Shown here piece by piece: positions 56,741 through 64,000 of a DNA stretch of 64,000 bases (its first letter is position 1; every line of letters begins with the position of its first letter). Made by a program: the position numbers and the translations under genes. The notes beneath the pieces were generated by a model. The model did not search any database, was not told the DNA's origin, and saw nothing but the letters and a program-made list of their open reading frames with translations. Source of the DNA: Desulfosudis oleivorans (GTDB lineage Bacteria; Desulfobacterota; Desulfobacteria; Desulfobacterales; SURF-7); NCBI GenBank assembly GCA_020723305.1, contig DYJC01000012.1, positions 1 through 64,000 on the forward strand, written 5' to 3'.

Positions 56741-57126
56741 TTTTGGCGGAGCTGATGGAATCAAAAACGGGAAAAATCGCTTTGTCTATGTTTCCATCTG
56801 AATCATTAAGTAAGGTGTTGATAGACCATATCGTTTCTCGGTGAAAAAAAACACCGTTTCTGGCAGGTCTTTTAAAAGAGACTTACAATTATTTTTCACA
56901 ATAAATGCTTCATAAAAAATGATAAATATTTGATATAGTTATTAATATTTTGATAACTTGCGACGCGGTCGACAGCTCTGCAATTATCAGTTCCTGAATG
57001 GATATTATCTTGTCCCACTGGATGGATCTGAATATTTTTCTTCCGATAAAGCAAACTGTCCATATTGCTTGAAGACCTAACCCGTCAAAGGGGACGTCCG
57101 CTATCATCACCAGATCCTGCAAGCTG

Positions 57127-57481
57127 TCATCGTCCATCCCAACATCCGACAGGAGCTTTTCCTCTTTTCGGAACCGATCCAAAACAGCGATGGAAATGAG
57201 TTACAATAAAACTCTCATACCTGTTTCTACATAATCCTGTCAGGTCCATCACCTCATCCACAGGTGTGCGCCTATAGGATATCTGTGATAATCGCCTATC
57301 AACCAGACCATCTACCCCCTCTTCTTGATAACAATTAATATAACTGCGAAATGGTCCTTTCGCACACCCCAAACAGTCTACCTGCCTCTTCCTGGTTAAT
57401 CTTATTGCTGGCCCAACCATCTATGCCTCTTCAAATCTCATCTTCCGGATCTCCTGTAACTCTCATGAGCAGCACCTCCAT
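57127..57481 (-). pseudogene. Decayed ISNCY-like transposase N-terminus
   Basis: Minus-strand remnants in two frames. The first, from an ATG at 57481, is broken by stops but contains NQEEAGRLFGVCERT, a helix-turn-helix; the second contains YQEEGVDGLVDRRLSQISYR, TPVDEVMDLT and NRYESFIVTHFH, which match the N-terminus of ISNCY-type transposases as I remember them. The catalytic domain is missing; a further open frame at 56910-57182 gives no recognisable match. No flanking terminal repeats are visible. It marks the left border of the AT-rich region. Confidence 0.65.
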
Positions 57482-58520: not shown

Positions 58521-59663
58521 ATGATCAAATGGACAAAAGAACAAAAGGCGCTTAGGGATGCCGTCTTTGAAATCTCTGAGAAACTCAATGAAAAAAAGTT
58601 ACAAGATGATCATGGAGAAATATTCTCGCCTATGAAATGGAAACTGCTATGCGAGATTGACCTCTGTGGAATCGTTACTGATGAAAAATTTAATGGTAGT
58701 GGATTGGATTTATTGACGACGATGTATCTTCTTGAAGCGTTGGGCTTTTCTTGTGAAGATGCAGGGTTAAATTTCTCTTTATGTACACACATTGTTAGCA
58801 CTCAAATTCCGATACAGAGATACGGAAGCGAAGAAAATAAAGCAAAATATTTACCTCAACTCGCCGCAGGTAGTTTAATCGGCGCACATGCGATAACGGA
58901 ACCAGATGCCGGTTCCGACGCTTTTTCGATGAATACCAGTGCTGAAAAAAAAGATGGTCATTATGTACTAAATGGGACAAAGACGTTTATTACCAATGGC
59001 CCTATCGCCGATCTTTTTATTGTTTACGCTTGGACAGATAAAAACCTTGGAACCCTTGGAGGGCTTTCGGCATTTATAGTTGAAAAAGATACAACTGGCT
59101 TTACACGTGGGAATCCTATTGAAAAAATGGGACTTACTTCTTCTCCACTATGTGAACTTTTCTTTGACGATTGTAAGATACCCAAATCAAATCTGCTTTG
59201 GAAGGAAGGTAAAGGATTCGCGATTTTTAGCTATGTGATGAATTGGGAAGTTTTGTGCTGCTCTGCAATTCATTTGGGTGAAATGCGATGTTTAATTGAA
59301 AAATGTATAGAATACACAAAGCATCGTAGGCAATTTGGGCAGGTCATTTCAAAATTTCAGACAATTTCACATAAAATTGCTGATATGAAAATCGGATTAA
59401 AAGCGGCAACAGCTGTCACCTATGATGCCGGTAATCGATTTGCACAAGGTGAAAGATGTAACATGGATATAGCAGTTGCCAAAGTTTTAACATCAGAAAA
59501 TTATGTAAAAACCTCTTTGGAAGCCATTCAAATTTTTGGTGCATATGGATACATGAAAGAATACGGTATCGAGCGTTCATTACGAGATGCGGTTGCAGCC
59601 AAAATATATTCTGGATCTTCGGAAATTCAACGTAACAAAATTGCAGCGTTAATGGGAATATAA
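58521..59663 (+). CDS. Acyl-CoA-dehydrogenase-like flavoenzyme (possible prolyl-PCP oxidase)
   Basis: 380 residues from the ATG at 58521 (GGAG upstream). Acyl-CoA dehydrogenase fold: GAHAITEPDAGSDAFSMN near 117 and the FAD loop RRQFGQVISKFQ near 273. At the usual catalytic Glu the sequence is IYSGSSEIQR, i.e. Ser instead of Glu; a Glu in NWEVLCCSAIHLGEM near 244 sits where isovaleryl-CoA dehydrogenase has its base. This swap is what I recall of prolyl carrier-protein oxidases (RedW/PltE/PigA type). Substrate inferred from the neighbouring adenylation and carrier genes. Confidence 0.82.
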   Translation: MIKWTKEQKALRDAVFEISEKLNEKKLQDDHGEIFSPMKWKLLCEIDLCGIVTDEKFNGSGLDLLTTMYLLEALGFSCEDAGLNFSLCTHIVSTQIPIQRYGSEENKAKYLPQLAAGSLIGAHAITEPDAGSDAFSMNTSAEKKDGHYVLNGTKTFITNGPIADLFIVYAWTDKNLGTLGGLSAFIVEKDTTGFTRGNPIEKMGLTSSPLCELFFDDCKIPKSNLLWKEGKGFAIFSYVMNWEVLCCSAIHLGEMRCLIEKCIEYTKHRRQFGQVISKFQTISHKIADMKIGLKAATAVTYDAGNRFAQGERCNMDIAVAKVLTSENYVKTSLEAIQIFGAYGYMKEYGIERSLRDAVAAKIYSGSSEIQRNKIAALMGI

Positions 59664-59739
59664 GCTTTCCTAAATTCTATATTTTTAACTAAATCTATCG
59701 GTCATAGCTTCCACTTTTACTCAAGAAAGGAGAAAAAAC

Positions 59740-60276
59740 ATGCTACGAAACAATTTAACAAACCTTTCCAAAATGGGACTCCTCTGGGCGAAACTCTATT
59801 ATGCATTTGCAAAAGAAATAGTTGACCAACTCGGCCAGGAAAAAGGGGGCAAGCTGCTTGTGGATTGCATAAAAAAATATGCAAAACTCCGTGGGACTGC
59901 AATCGCTGAATATATACAAAAAAATCAGCTACCTTATGACGCAAAAAGCTTCATTGACAACTTTGATTCTTGTTTCTCAGATCTACAAAAGGAATTTTTG
60001 GAATTGTTTCCCGATAAAAGCCTGGTGCCGTGCGAAGGAACGACATTTTGTCCATATTTAGAAATATGGAAAGAACTTGAGGATGGTAAAAAGCTTGCAT
60101 TGATTTATTGTGAGGAATTTCATAAAGCCATGTGGGAAGCTTACCACCCAAAACTCCGAGTTCGCCAGGATAAAATAATGGCCCGCGATGATGAAATCTG
60201 CACATTTGAGACGTATATGGAAGGAGATGAGGACAATATCCTTTTAATCTTTGATCAAAAAGTATCAATTCAATGA
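59740..60276 (+). CDS. ATC-hydrolase-like protein
   Basis: 178 residues. Patterns LGQEKGGKLLVDCIKKYAKLRG and CPYLEIWKEL followed by AYHPKLRVRQDKIMARDDEICTFE match the L-2-amino-thiazoline-4-carboxylate hydrolase-like family. One Cys near 105-108 may be a metal or catalytic residue. AAAGGAG lies upstream. Position between a flavoenzyme and an adenylation enzyme suggests a tailoring or ligand-binding role in the same pathway. Confidence 0.75.
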   Translation: MLRNNLTNLSKMGLLWAKLYYAFAKEIVDQLGQEKGGKLLVDCIKKYAKLRGTAIAEYIQKNQLPYDAKSFIDNFDSCFSDLQKEFLELFPDKSLVPCEGTTFCPYLEIWKELEDGKKLALIYCEEFHKAMWEAYHPKLRVRQDKIMARDDEICTFETYMEGDEDNILLIFDQKVSIQ

Positions 60277-60324
60277 TACCGATTTATTTCATTGTCTAAT
60301 CATAATTTTAGAGGATTTAAAAGA

Positions 60325-61969
60325 ATGAAAGTAACGAGTTCAACAGTTCTTTGCCAGAACACTACAACAAACAAAAAACAGTTTTGTTTCGCGCATAAGA
60401 TACTTGAAAAAAGTGCAGAAGATTATGGAAGCTTCGAGGCTGTTCGGTTGGGGGATCGTTTTTTAACATATCGAGAGTTGAATGATAGGTCAGGTAAAAT
60501 TGCAGACTGTCTACTTCGAGCTGGAGTTAATATTGGTGACAGGATAGGAATATACATTGAAAAGAGTTTGGACTTTGTGATCAGTATTTTTGCGGTGTTA
60601 AAATCAGGAGGTGTTTATGTGCCGATGGATCCACGTAACCACGTGAAGCGGAATGAATTTATAATCAACGATAGCAACATTTCGATTATTCTAACAACGT
60701 CATCTACTGTTTACGAGGTCAAAAATATCCGTAAAATAGGAAATAGTCGAGAAAAAATAATTTTGATTGACGAGAAAAGTCCACATCTCGACAAATTATC
60801 GAAAGATGATAATATTTTTGACTATCACGAAATAATCAAACAGAAACCAAAAGAAGTCCCTATCGATATCTCGCCTCAAGACCTTGCGGTTATTTTTTAT
60901 ACTTCCGGATCCACCGGTACACCCAAAGGTGTGATGATCTCCCATGAAAGTATAGTTGTTTTTGTTAACTGGGTGATAGACGAATTTCAAATCACAAGCA
61001 AAGACCGTTTTATTAGTATAGCTCCAATGCATTTTGACATTTCTCTGCTTGATATCTTTGCATCATTGGCTGTAGGTGCAAGTGTTGTCCTCGTACCACC
61101 TTCAAAAGTCGGAAATCCAGGATTTATCATCAGTCTAGTTGTGCAAGAACAAATTACATTCTGGCAGTCAGTTCCATCAGTCCTAATATTACTTGTTGAA
61201 TATGGGGAATTCGAGAAGTTAAATTTGAACAGAATCCGTCATGTAATCTTCACTGGTGAGAAAATGCCTGTAAAGTATCTGAAAGTTTTAATTCAATACT
61301 TTAAAGAAGCAGATTTTTATAATATTTACGGCTGTACGGAAACCAACGATACCTTTATGTATAGGGTACCCAAAGATGTAAATATGATACCATCCCCGCT
61401 TCCTATTGGGAAAGCATTACCTTATGTAAACTTCCATATAATTGATGAAAACAATTGCGATGTTGGTTTTGATAAAGAAGGAGAACTTATCGTAAGTGCG
61501 CCAACAATTATGAAAGGATACCAGAAGGAAGCTGGAAATAATGAAAATCTGGTTTCATTTCGTTCATCTGAGGGCAAAGTCAAAAAATATTTTCGAACAA
61601 GAGATCTTGTTGTTCAATCAAAATCCAAGGGACTGACCCTCTGTGGGAGAACAGATGATATTATAAAAACAAATGGAAACAGAGTTAACCTTCTCGAGGT
61701 TCAAACCTGTATACAATCTCACCCTGATATCATTGAATCCGGTGTATTTTCGGTTGATGATGATTTTATCGGAAAACGAATTGTAGCAATTGTTTTGAAA
61801 AGACAGGAAATTCCATTAAGATCCTATGGATCTTAAAATTTATTGTAGCACCCAACTACCAAAATACGCTATCCCATCTATCATTAAAATTCGGACTGAC
61901 CGATTACCCCAGACCAGTTCCGGCAAAATAGATCGTAAGCGACTTAAAGAAGAATATATGAAGCCATAA
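60325..61969 (+). pseudogene. Stand-alone adenylation enzyme, interrupted by a frameshift
   Basis: Frame 1 (60325-61836, about 503 residues) has the A3 motif FYTSGSTGTPKGVM, the A4/A5 region APMHFDISLLDIF and NIYGCTETND, and GRTDDIIKTNGNR. It then ends early at PLRSYGS. The missing C-terminal subdomain continues in another frame to 61969 (LPKYAIPS, then SSGKIDRKRL with the catalytic Lys). Removing one A from TTAAGATCC at about 61819 restores an uninterrupted reading (PLDPMDLKIYC). Resembles stand-alone prolyl-AMP ligases such as PltF/RedM. The shift could be a real inactivating mutation or a sequence error. Confidence 0.85.
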
Positions 61970-62035
61970 ACAAAAAAGACATTTTCATACTTTAAAACCG
62001 AAAAAATCTATATTTTTAAAAACAAGGAGGATTTT

Positions 62036-62290
62036 ATGTTTAAAAAAGAAACGTTGAGAAAATTTATTATAAATGAGTTTTTATCAGATACTTCTGGTGA
62101 AGAAATTGGAAATGATATGGATCTGATTGCAACCGGGATTATTGATTCTTTAGCAGTATTGAAAATAATTTCATTTATTGAGATGACAAATGATATTGCA
62201 ATTGATCCGGATGAATTAGATCCTGAAAAATTAAATTCAATTGATGCAATTTACAATCTCATCGAGAGCAAAATCTCCCAAGTCGCATGA
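62036..62290 (+). CDS. Acyl/peptidyl carrier protein
   Basis: 84 residues, helical and acidic. The phosphopantetheine Ser is in TGIIDSLAVLK near residue 38. AAGGAGG upstream. As a discrete carrier between the adenylation and tailoring enzymes it probably holds the activated amino acid. The transferase encoded at 23017-23631 could activate it. Confidence 0.93.
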   Translation: MFKKETLRKFIINEFLSDTSGEEIGNDMDLIATGIIDSLAVLKIISFIEMTNDIAIDPDELDPEKLNSIDAIYNLIESKISQVA

Positions 62291-62381
62291 GTTTGATGAA
62301 TGAGAATTGGGAGAATAGTGTATAGCGTGTTGATTTTTCCATTATGATTGTTTGCGTTATCGAAGGATAAAATTTTAAAAA

Positions 62382-62978
62382 ATGAACGACTCATTTTTAA
62401 AAAAAATAATCAGAAATTCTGATGACATATCTATAGAGGACTATTTTAGTTTCTTACAGAAGGTTATAGAAAATAAAGCCGATAAAAGTGAAGTGATCGC
62501 CTTTGTCGCAGCGCTTTCGGCAAAACCGTTACGCGTCAAAGATTTGGTGTATTTTGTTCGTTTTATCGAATCCGTATCCCCACCAAAGGAAATCCTAAAT
62601 AGTAATCAAGCCATTAATATTGTTGGGACAGGAGGAGGAATTGCTACTTTTAATATCAGTACGACGTCAGCATTTATCGCAAGTGCGGCAGGCGCTAAAG
62701 TTCTAAAAAGTGGATCATATCGTTACAATAGCCAAAGTGGTTCTTTAGATGTTTTGACTGCGCTGGGATTAAATATTCATCTTAATCTACAAGCATTGGA
62801 AAAAATGCTTGCTGAGACCGGAATAGGATTTATCAATCCGAATATGTATTCGCCTTTGCTAAGAAGATTGGCTATTGCGATACTTCCTCTTGAATTAAAA
62901 GATATCGGAGGTTTTATCAATACAATTGGCCCTCTTATTTGTCCTGTTCATGTAAAGGGACAAATAAGAGGTGATTGA
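62382..62978 (+). CDS. TrpD-like phosphoribosyltransferase-fold protein, C-terminally short
   Basis: 198 residues, about 60 percent of normal TrpD length. The N-terminal helical bundle and the PRPP-binding loop GTGGGIATFNIST are present, with YNSQSGSLDVLTALGL near 115. The protein ends at HVKGQIRGD, where TrpD normally continues with its second half and the Mg-binding Asp-Glu pair. No other frame in the 38 bp before the next gene continues it. It may be a truncated remnant or a specialised short variant. Confidence 0.8.
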   Translation: MNDSFLKKIIRNSDDISIEDYFSFLQKVIENKADKSEVIAFVAALSAKPLRVKDLVYFVRFIESVSPPKEILNSNQAINIVGTGGGIATFNISTTSAFIASAAGAKVLKSGSYRYNSQSGSLDVLTALGLNIHLNLQALEKMLAETGIGFINPNMYSPLLRRLAIAILPLELKDIGGFINTIGPLICPVHVKGQIRGD

Positions 62979-63016
62979 CTAATTTATGGTATTAATAGTA
63001 TTCGTGAGGTATGTCA

Positions 63017-64000
63017 ATGAAAACCGACTATAAGATGGGCCTTGGCTACTTGCTTGATCTTGCAACTGGGCATTACAGGTCAAAAACCCTTTTTGTTGCA
63101 ACAAAGCTCAAGGTTTTCACTATTCTTGCAGGAGGCCCCAAGACATTCAAAGAAATGTCAAGCATATTGAATATCGAAAGCAGACCCGCTGCGATGCTCC
63201 TCAACGCTTGTGTATCTATAGGACTGCTGGAAAAGAATGGAGATACCTATCGCAACTCTCGTACTTCAAGCATATATCTTGTCGAAGGTGGTCCAAGATT
63301 TCTCGGACCAGCTTTTTTTAAGTTCGATGACCACAGCTACCTGCTGTTCGATAAACTTCAGGACGCCATATTAGAGGACAAACACCAGCTACCGACTGAA
63401 AACCCCGATGATCCGGAACTACTGGCTTCATGCATGCAAATTGGCAACAAAACGGAGTATGGTTTGTTCCTTTCATCCCTGGACCCGATTGCTGATTGGC
63501 CAGCCAGCATGATAGCCAGAACGTTTGATTTTTCTCGCTTCAAAAAGGTGGTCGATGTGGGGGGCGGAACCGGGATATACTCCCAGGCAATCGTAAAGAA
63601 ACACCCGAACATTCAGGCTGTCGTATTCGATCTCCCTTATGTTTGCGAGATTGGACACAAAGCCATTGAGAAAAAGGGATTATCAGACCGCATTCAATAT
63701 CACAGCGGAAATTTTCTTCACGACGAGTTTCCCGAGGGAATGGATCTTGCATTCTTATCCAACCTTCTTCACGGGTTTGGCCCAGAAAAAAGTACGTCAA
63801 TATTGAAAAGGGTTTACGATTCTTTACCCCAAAACGGTGGTATTATCATCAGCGATTTAATATTGGATGAAGACGGATGCGGCCCGGAAATGGGTACAAT
63901 GCTCTCATTTTACTTTCTATTGATAACCCAAGAAGGCAGGAACTACACATATTCAGAATACAAGGCAATGCTTGAAGATGCTGGATTCATAGATATTGAG
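63017..64000 (+). CDS. Class I O-methyltransferase (partial, runs off window)
   Basis: At least 328 residues, 3' end outside the window. N-terminal dimerisation helices (YRSKTLFVATKLKVFTIL), then the SAM-binding motif VVDVGGGTGIYSQAIVKKH near 176 and DLAFLSNLLHGFGPEKS near 242, where the His is the likely catalytic base. It matches the plant-COMT-like PF00891 family that methylates small phenolic or pyrrole-type metabolites. GAGG precedes the ATG at 63017 by 7 nt. Base composition is less AT-rich than the genes before it. Confidence 0.85.
   Translation, partial: MKTDYKMGLGYLLDLATGHYRSKTLFVATKLKVFTILAGGPKTFKEMSSILNIESRPAAMLLNACVSIGLLEKNGDTYRNSRTSSIYLVEGGPRFLGPAFFKFDDHSYLLFDKLQDAILEDKHQLPTENPDDPELLASCMQIGNKTEYGLFLSSLDPIADWPASMIARTFDFSRFKKVVDVGGGTGIYSQAIVKKHPNIQAVVFDLPYVCEIGHKAIEKKGLSDRIQYHSGNFLHDEFPEGMDLAFLSNLLHGFGPEKSTSILKRVYDSLPQNGGIIISDLILDEDGCGPEMGTMLSFYFLLITQEGRNYTYSEYKAMLEDAGFIDIE

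Follow-up and report, generated by a model that had tools for sequence, protein, structure and literature searches.

The window analysed here—bases 1 to 64,000 of a 169,558-bp contig from the 5.4-Mb genome of Desulfosudis oleivorans, with window base 1 being contig base 1—ends inside a biosynthetic gene cluster that extends to ~77 kb of the contig when open reading frames (ORFs) are read onward (contig 52,000-83,000). We consider this cluster probably to be a diverged pyrrolopyrrole cassette of the kosinostatin type in a sulfate reducer, with glutamine as the amino acid most likely loaded. In order, it encodes an acyl-CoA dehydrogenase-like flavoenzyme (ACAD), an ATC_hydrolase-like protein, a stand-alone adenylation domain (A-domain), a peptidyl carrier protein (PCP), an O-methyltransferase, homologues of TrpD, TrpC, TrpF, and TrpA, an RND/LolA/outer-membrane module, an HMG-CoA-reductase-like (HMGR-like) enzyme, an FAD/FeS oxidoreductase, and a transglutaminase-like protein. 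The individual genes are as follows, first in the window and then in contig coordinates:

58521-59663, + strand: ACAD with Acyl-CoA_dh domains, a flavin dehydrogenase of the PigA/RedW/AnaB type
59740-60276, + strand: ATC_hydrolase-like protein (PF14196, E 9.7e-11)
60292-61836, + strand: stand-alone A-domain (PF00501, E 5.8e-84), final ~49 residues out of frame
62036-62290, + strand: PCP, copy 1 (NCBIfam carrier proteins, 4.6e-14; Ser of the IDSL motif present); second copy at contig 64489-64743
62382-62978, + strand: truncated TrpD-like duplicate (198 of ~340 amino acids)
63011-64000 in the window, ending at contig 64051, + strand: O-methyltransferase, Methyltransf_2 with dimerisation domain
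contig 64835-65863, + strand: full TrpD homologue
contig 65832-66566, + strand: TrpC homologue
contig 66695-67378, + strand: TrpF homologue
contig 67396-68256, + strand: TrpA homologue, with no TrpB in the cluster
contig 68210-70675, + strand: MMPL/HAE3 RND exporter (longest start taken)
contig 70753-71556, + strand: LolA_like protein
contig 71553-72746, + strand: probable outer-membrane protein
contig 72899-74125, + strand: HMGR-like enzyme
contig 74228-76129, + strand: FAD_binding_4 oxidoreductase with FeS cysteines
contig 76159-76869, + strand: transglutaminase-like protein
contig 77585-79072, + strand: HemN-like radical SAM protein, at the cluster end

A preliminary description, made from the window alone, had named a flavoenzyme, an A-domain, a carrier protein, an ATC-hydrolase-like protein, a TrpD-like protein, and an O-methyltransferase in a sulfate reducer. 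All six lie on the + strand and have the domains it gave, a dsrA match of 617 bits in the same genome supports the sulfate-reducer label, and the cluster runs past 64 kb, as that description had suggested checking. The TrpD copy in the window is only the truncated duplicate, which is probably non-functional, and the frameshift at 61820, with the early end that it gives the A-domain ORF, had been missed. The partners that had seemed unfamiliar become easier to place with the full gene set: TrpD is one of four Trp homologues, and the set matches the pyrrolopyrrole sub-pathway of kosinostatin rather than the pyoluteorin or prodigiosin pathways.

Evidence for a single pathway comes from distant genomes. 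With the ACAD as query against 84,980 species genomes, the top matches were two loci of one gammaproteobacterial metagenome-assembled genome (MAG; 55% identity). The main locus of this MAG encodes ACAD, A-domain, PCP, TrpF, an EctC-like cupin, a transglutaminase-like protein, TrpA, TrpD, and TrpC on one strand, and a ketosynthase (KS), an acyl carrier protein, an HMGR-like enzyme, an FAD/FeS oxidoreductase, UbiD, EtfB, and EtfA on the other. Besides the ACAD, identities to the window cluster are 43% for the A-domain, 46% for the PCP, 46%, 41%, 40%, and 39% for TrpD, TrpC, TrpF, and TrpA, 46% for the transglutaminase-like protein, 56% for the HMGR-like enzyme, 49% for the FAD oxidoreductase, and 43% for the outer-membrane protein. 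That a different phylum carries this set with its order changed argues strongly for one pathway, and the presence of the HMGR-like enzyme and FAD oxidoreductase in the set ties these two to that pathway. The HemN-like radical SAM gene, by comparison, has no homologue in the relatives' cassettes. Loci of Streptomyces, Kitasatospora, and Lentzea carry the order A-PCP-EctC-ACAD-transglutaminase, and a TrpD query against plasmids recovered Streptomyces xanthii, where A-PCP-TrpD-TrpA-EctC-ACAD-transglutaminase-TrpF-TrpC lies within a type II polyketide synthase (PKS) cluster, as well as S. albogriseolus and eight plasmids of Aliiroseovarius crassostreae (Rhodobacterales), two of which were opened and read transglutaminase-EctC-KS-KS-ACAD-A-PCP-TrpD-TrpC. 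An EctC query added Streptomyces NBC plasmids; the two opened read aminotransferase-KS-MaoC-A-PCP-TrpD-TrpA-EctC-ACAD-TrpF-TrpC.

Phylogeny and substrate-pocket residues separate these enzymes from the better-known pyrrole systems. The ACADs encoded by the cassette loci group in a single clade (support 100/100), as do the A-domains (95/89, with some long branches in the tree), and in both the window protein groups with the gammaproteobacterial MAG, the Rhodobacterales plasmids, and actinomycetes; the relation of the PCP to the actinomycete cassettes is one of similarity only. The preliminary description had asked whether phylogeny would put A-domain and ACAD among unrelated lipid enzymes, and neither is placed there. 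It had also proposed a pyrrole-type pathway, with D, I, and L at GrsA-like positions 235, 236, and 239 resembling a prolyl ligase. Those residues are correct, and a carrier-bound amino acid and pyrrole-type chemistry probably stand, given an ACAD of the PigA/RedW/AnaB sort; proline probably does not, as both pocket and clade differ. The full pocket of the window A-domain is D-I-L-Q-I-T-I-D-T, close to DLLQLAIDT in the gammaproteobacterium and DLLQ[VI]T[VL]DS in actinomycetes. The cluster and its nearest relatives thus share D[LI]LQ.[TA].D[TS] in a clade separate from the prolyl-code loci, whereas most of the other A-domains found here beside such ACADs have the prolyl pocket DL[LF]Y.ALVC; the window A-domain likewise does not match the prolyl pocket DLLYLALVC.

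These results bear directly on the possibility that proline is loaded and oxidised by the ACAD to pyrrolyl-2-carboxyl-PCP, as in pyoluteorin and prodigiosin biosynthesis, while the Trp genes make something separate. Resemblances exist: AnaB (prolyl-ACP dehydrogenase, 4irn) is the top PDB match of the ACAD and shares the Glu of its WE motif, PigA and RedW are the best NCBIfam models, PltF (6o6e) and PigI are among the top structure matches of the A-domain, and PDB matches of the PCP, which has no Pfam match in a search of the window proteins, include PltL and PigG. Like the prolyl-PCP systems (PltF/PltE/PltL, PigI/PigA/PigG, RedM/RedW/RedO, AnaB/C/D), the cluster pairs a stand-alone A-domain with a type II PCP and a homologous ACAD expected to act on a cyclic aminoacyl thioester. 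However, the ACAD scores of 399.9 bits (PigA) and 370.4 bits (RedW) fall below the equivalog cut-offs of 500 and 650, the pocket departs from the prolyl class at positions 278, 322, 330, and 331, and both the A-domain and ACAD clades exclude prolyl-code loci. Unlike those systems, moreover, the cluster has extra ring-forming Trp-type enzymes and an EctC/ATC-type step, and the Trp homologues travel with the set in distant genomes. The prolyl reading is probably wrong, and we regard it as quite improbable.

The TrpD, TrpC, TrpF, and TrpA homologues are of the same families as the enzymes of the tryptophan pathway and are dedicated to the cassette; separate primary trp genes—trpD, and trpA with a trpB-like neighbour—are found elsewhere in the genome. 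Catalytic residues are kept in TrpC (Lys, Lys, Glu, Ser), TrpF (Cys, Asp), and TrpA (Glu, Asp). In contrast, the TrpD of every cassette examined has K[ST]GS in place of KHGN, lacks the arginine of RRELG, and carries three inserted residues, with the PRPP motif still recognisable. The residues that we take to contact anthranilate—the His and Asn of KHGN, a second His, and an Arg—are changed in the TrpD of this cluster and in all cassette TrpDs, but kept or largely kept in six canonical TrpDs. In a small tree (11 rows), the cassette TrpDs form a clade (100/100) against canonical TrpDs, including this genome's own. Judged from sequence, this is the pattern expected if the chemistry was retained and anthranilate was not. 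It also weighs on the idea of a dedicated indole supply, in which TrpD-F-C-A would convert anthranilate to free indole for joining to a PCP-bound acyl unit: all four anthranilate-to-indole activities are encoded, and TrpA occurs without TrpB as in plant BX1-type indole lyases, but no cassette TrpD retains KHGN or the arginine of RRELG, and the cluster is devoid of anthranilate synthase (and of TrpE/G/B generally), which makes such a supply very hard to credit.

A closer counterpart to the gene set is found in kosinostatin (quinocycline) biosynthesis. As summarised in PMC7918784, which cites Ma et al. 2013, the kstB genes are responsible for loading nicotinic acid and turning it into a pyrrole, and the kstC genes combine this pyrrole with phosphoribosyl pyrophosphate (PRPP) to give the pyrrolopyrrole; nicotinic acid and ribose are its precursors according to PMC7918784 and PMC5321127. 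Disruption of ksnC3, a homologue of phosphoribosylanthranilate isomerase (PRAI), abolished kosinostatin production (PMC13099267). Like the kstB/kstC genes of Micromonospora TP-A0468 and ksn of S. albidoflavus, the window cluster combines a discrete A-domain and PCP with enzymes of the Trp-pathway type, and a PCP-bound building block would be made apart from the polyketide. It differs in its Desulfobacterota host, in having an ATC_hydrolase-like protein instead of EctC, and in its HMGR-like enzyme, FAD/FeS oxidoreductase, and RND/LolA/outer-membrane export; type II PKS and branched octose genes were not identified among the ORFs of contig 52,000-83,000. In Micromonospora 28ISP2-46, antiSMASH labelled the kst region T2PKS, ectoine, NRPS, T1PKS, and other (PMC7918784), and the "ectoine" label fits an EctC-like gene. 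The literature yielded no known pathway with the A/PCP/EctC/ACAD/transglutaminase combination before this link was made; an early idea of a bipyrrole formed from a beta-enamino acid was given up when the EctC/ATC link and a type II PKS context came to light.

The substrate assignment rests largely on an exchange of two unrelated proteins. The relatives' cassettes carry an EctC-like cupin, for which the window cluster has the ATC_hydrolase-like protein in its stead: the latter went unmatched in those cassettes even at a threshold of E 1, and no match to EctC (Ectoine_synth, PF06339) was found in the cluster or genome, control genomes being likewise silent. In the cassette cupins—which, like other solitary ectoine synthases, occur without EctAB but are here set in a carrier-protein pathway—the metal-ligand positions (Glu, Tyr, His) are conserved, corresponding to Glu-57, Tyr-84, and His-92 in the numbering of PMC6344544. 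EctC interconverts L-glutamine and the cyclic amidine 5-amino-3,4-dihydro-2H-pyrrole-2-carboxylate (ADPC) in a slow, reversible side reaction (PMC5924519), and L-ATC hydrolase opens the ring of 2-aminothiazoline-4-carboxylate (ATC) to S-carbamyl-cysteine (PMC10821248). ATC is ADPC, and S-carbamyl-cysteine is glutamine, with sulfur in place of CH2. Since two unrelated families act on the same kind of ring, we infer that glutamine is loaded and propose that the ATC_hydrolase-like protein replaces the EctC-like cupin.

From the gene content, families, clades, and residues computed here, a tentative route, including its order, substrate, and export, can be sketched. The A-domain would load an alpha-amino acid, most likely L-glutamine, onto the PCP, and the ATC_hydrolase-like protein would close PCP-glutamine to a five-membered cyclic amidine, the ADPC thioester, a task falling to the EctC-like cupin in relatives. 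Removal of two electrons by the ACAD would give 5-aminopyrrole-2-carbonyl-PCP. The TrpD-like enzyme would then transfer the ribose phosphate of PRPP onto the exocyclic amine, the TrpF-like enzyme carry out an Amadori shift, the TrpC-like enzyme close the second ring, and the TrpA-like enzyme split off glyceraldehyde 3-phosphate to leave a pyrrolo[2,3-b]pyrrole. Release or reduction of the product may fall to the transglutaminase-like and HMGR-like enzymes, and its export to the RND/LolA/outer-membrane module. The carbon count, five from glutamine plus two from ribose with no deformylation, fits this glutamine route.

The published proposal offers a different start to the same pyrrolopyrrole, in which nicotinate or a nicotinamide-derived acid would be loaded and contracted to a pyrrole. 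It has the kstB assignment behind it, as given in PMC7918784 and PMC5321127. On the other hand, all kst-type A-domains examined retain Asp235, the hallmark contact of an alpha-amine, in keeping with an alpha-amino acid substrate; the cluster of another producer lacks KstB7, the putative deformylase (PMC7918784); and a glutamine/ADPC step accounts for the EctC/ATC-hydrolase exchange, whereas a nicotinate step does not. We therefore consider nicotinate loading unlikely, though less so than the proline and indole alternatives.

Several points nevertheless weigh against a glutamine-derived, kosinostatin-type assignment. Glutamine conflicts with the published origin from nicotinate and ribose, for which labelling data on nicotinate may exist. 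The match to kosinostatin was made by gene set and descriptions, with sequence comparison running through the S. xanthii, S. albogriseolus, and NBC plasmid clusters rather than the Micromonospora kst genes, and the 19 kb that follow the window yielded no KS or type II PKS gene. The ATC-like protein resembles the PF14196 family only remotely, and its single-sequence structure model (pLDDT 42) was too poor for a structure search. The transglutaminase-like protein is tied less firmly to the cluster, since its family is frequent among Desulfobacterota (152 of 390 genomes); for this reason it was also dropped as a marker for further clusters. Finally, an extra G at 61820 shifts the frame of the A-domain gene ~49 codons before its end.

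The frameshift lies within a near-perfect direct repeat:

1179-bp direct repeat, + strand, 99.7% identical: copy 1 at window 61799-62977, copy 2 at contig 64253-65429

The repeat holds the end of the A-domain gene, the PCP, and the first half of TrpD, and its copies differ, the last 10 bases aside, only by the G at 61820, so that copy 2 is in frame. An A-domain frameshifted within such a repeat makes the present activity of the cluster uncertain, and the arrangement may reflect either an assembly that mixes strains or a real insertion (e.g., by single crossover). Regardless of the chemistry, the cluster could be a decaying remnant now inactive in this strain, which would be compatible with any of the other readings. 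The frameshift, the truncated TrpD copy, the 1.18-kb repeat around the O-methyltransferase, and transposase-like ORF remnants upstream point that way; all remaining cluster genes are open, however, and the absence of the extra G from copy 2 means that frameshift and repeat may be artefacts of assembly or strain mixture. We see decay as a real possibility but lean against it. If the repeat is real, recombination between its copies could excise the O-methyltransferase, so that a plain A-PCP-TrpD-TrpC-TrpF-TrpA operon would remain. Lying between the copies, with higher GC than its surroundings and no match in the relatives' cassettes, the O-methyltransferase was dropped as a core gene, and its membership in the pathway is doubtful.

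The cluster was probably acquired horizontally. Its GC is ~37% against 45% in the first 58 kb of the window, although flanking 750-bp bins overlap with the cluster values, and transposase-like remnants (by eye from translations) lie at window 56910-57420, upstream of the ACAD gene; both are hints of acquisition. The cassette TrpD was found in one of 390 Desulfobacterota genomes, the starting genome itself, and in one of 369 genomes of the gammaproteobacterial MAG's class, that MAG itself. The full kosinostatin cluster had 18 putative carriers among 34,389 Actinomycetota genomes (PMC13099267). A partial literature search found no published report of the cassette outside Actinomycetota, and its occurrence in this sulfate reducer, in the gammaproteobacterial MAG, and on Rhodobacterales plasmids extends it to further lineages and to non-anthracycline products, with a Trp-pathway enzyme set apparently recruited jointly for a new substrate.

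More broadly, glutamine might be the building block of the whole family, closed by an EctC-like cupin or, here, by the unrelated ATC-hydrolase-like protein, oxidised by the ACAD to a 2-aminopyrrole, and built up by Trp-type enzymes to the pyrrolopyrrole, with this cluster representing an anaerobic, non-type-II-PKS pathway with HMGR-like reduction to a new class of envelope-exported compound; taken as a whole, we judge this wider proposal somewhat more likely to fail than to hold. If true, a glutamine/ADPC start would remove the awkward deformylase step of the published route and offer a function for some solitary EctC proteins, an open question according to one review (PMC5924519), and the EctC/ATC-hydrolase swap makes the published biosynthetic assignment testable.

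Some minor observations concern the relatives. With the ATC-like protein as query, only remote homologues were recovered; the two loci read had no A-domain match nearby, and in one relative with a 6.8-Mb genome a single open frame of 352 residues encodes two ATC_hydrolase-like domains in tandem, with no A-domain match nearby. The two A. crassostreae cassettes that were opened contain two KS-like genes, a LolA_like gene, and ABC transporter genes, and neither TrpF nor TrpA was matched within 31 kb. No type II PKS was seen near the plasmid cassettes of Streptomyces sp. NBC_00523 and NBC_00536, which probably make a different pyrrolopyrrole product. Solitary EctC genes may often serve natural-product pathways; three further examples adjoin a tryptophan halogenase (Gloeothece), a nonribosomal peptide synthetase (Mycetohabitans), and a type I PKS (Rhizobium gallicum).

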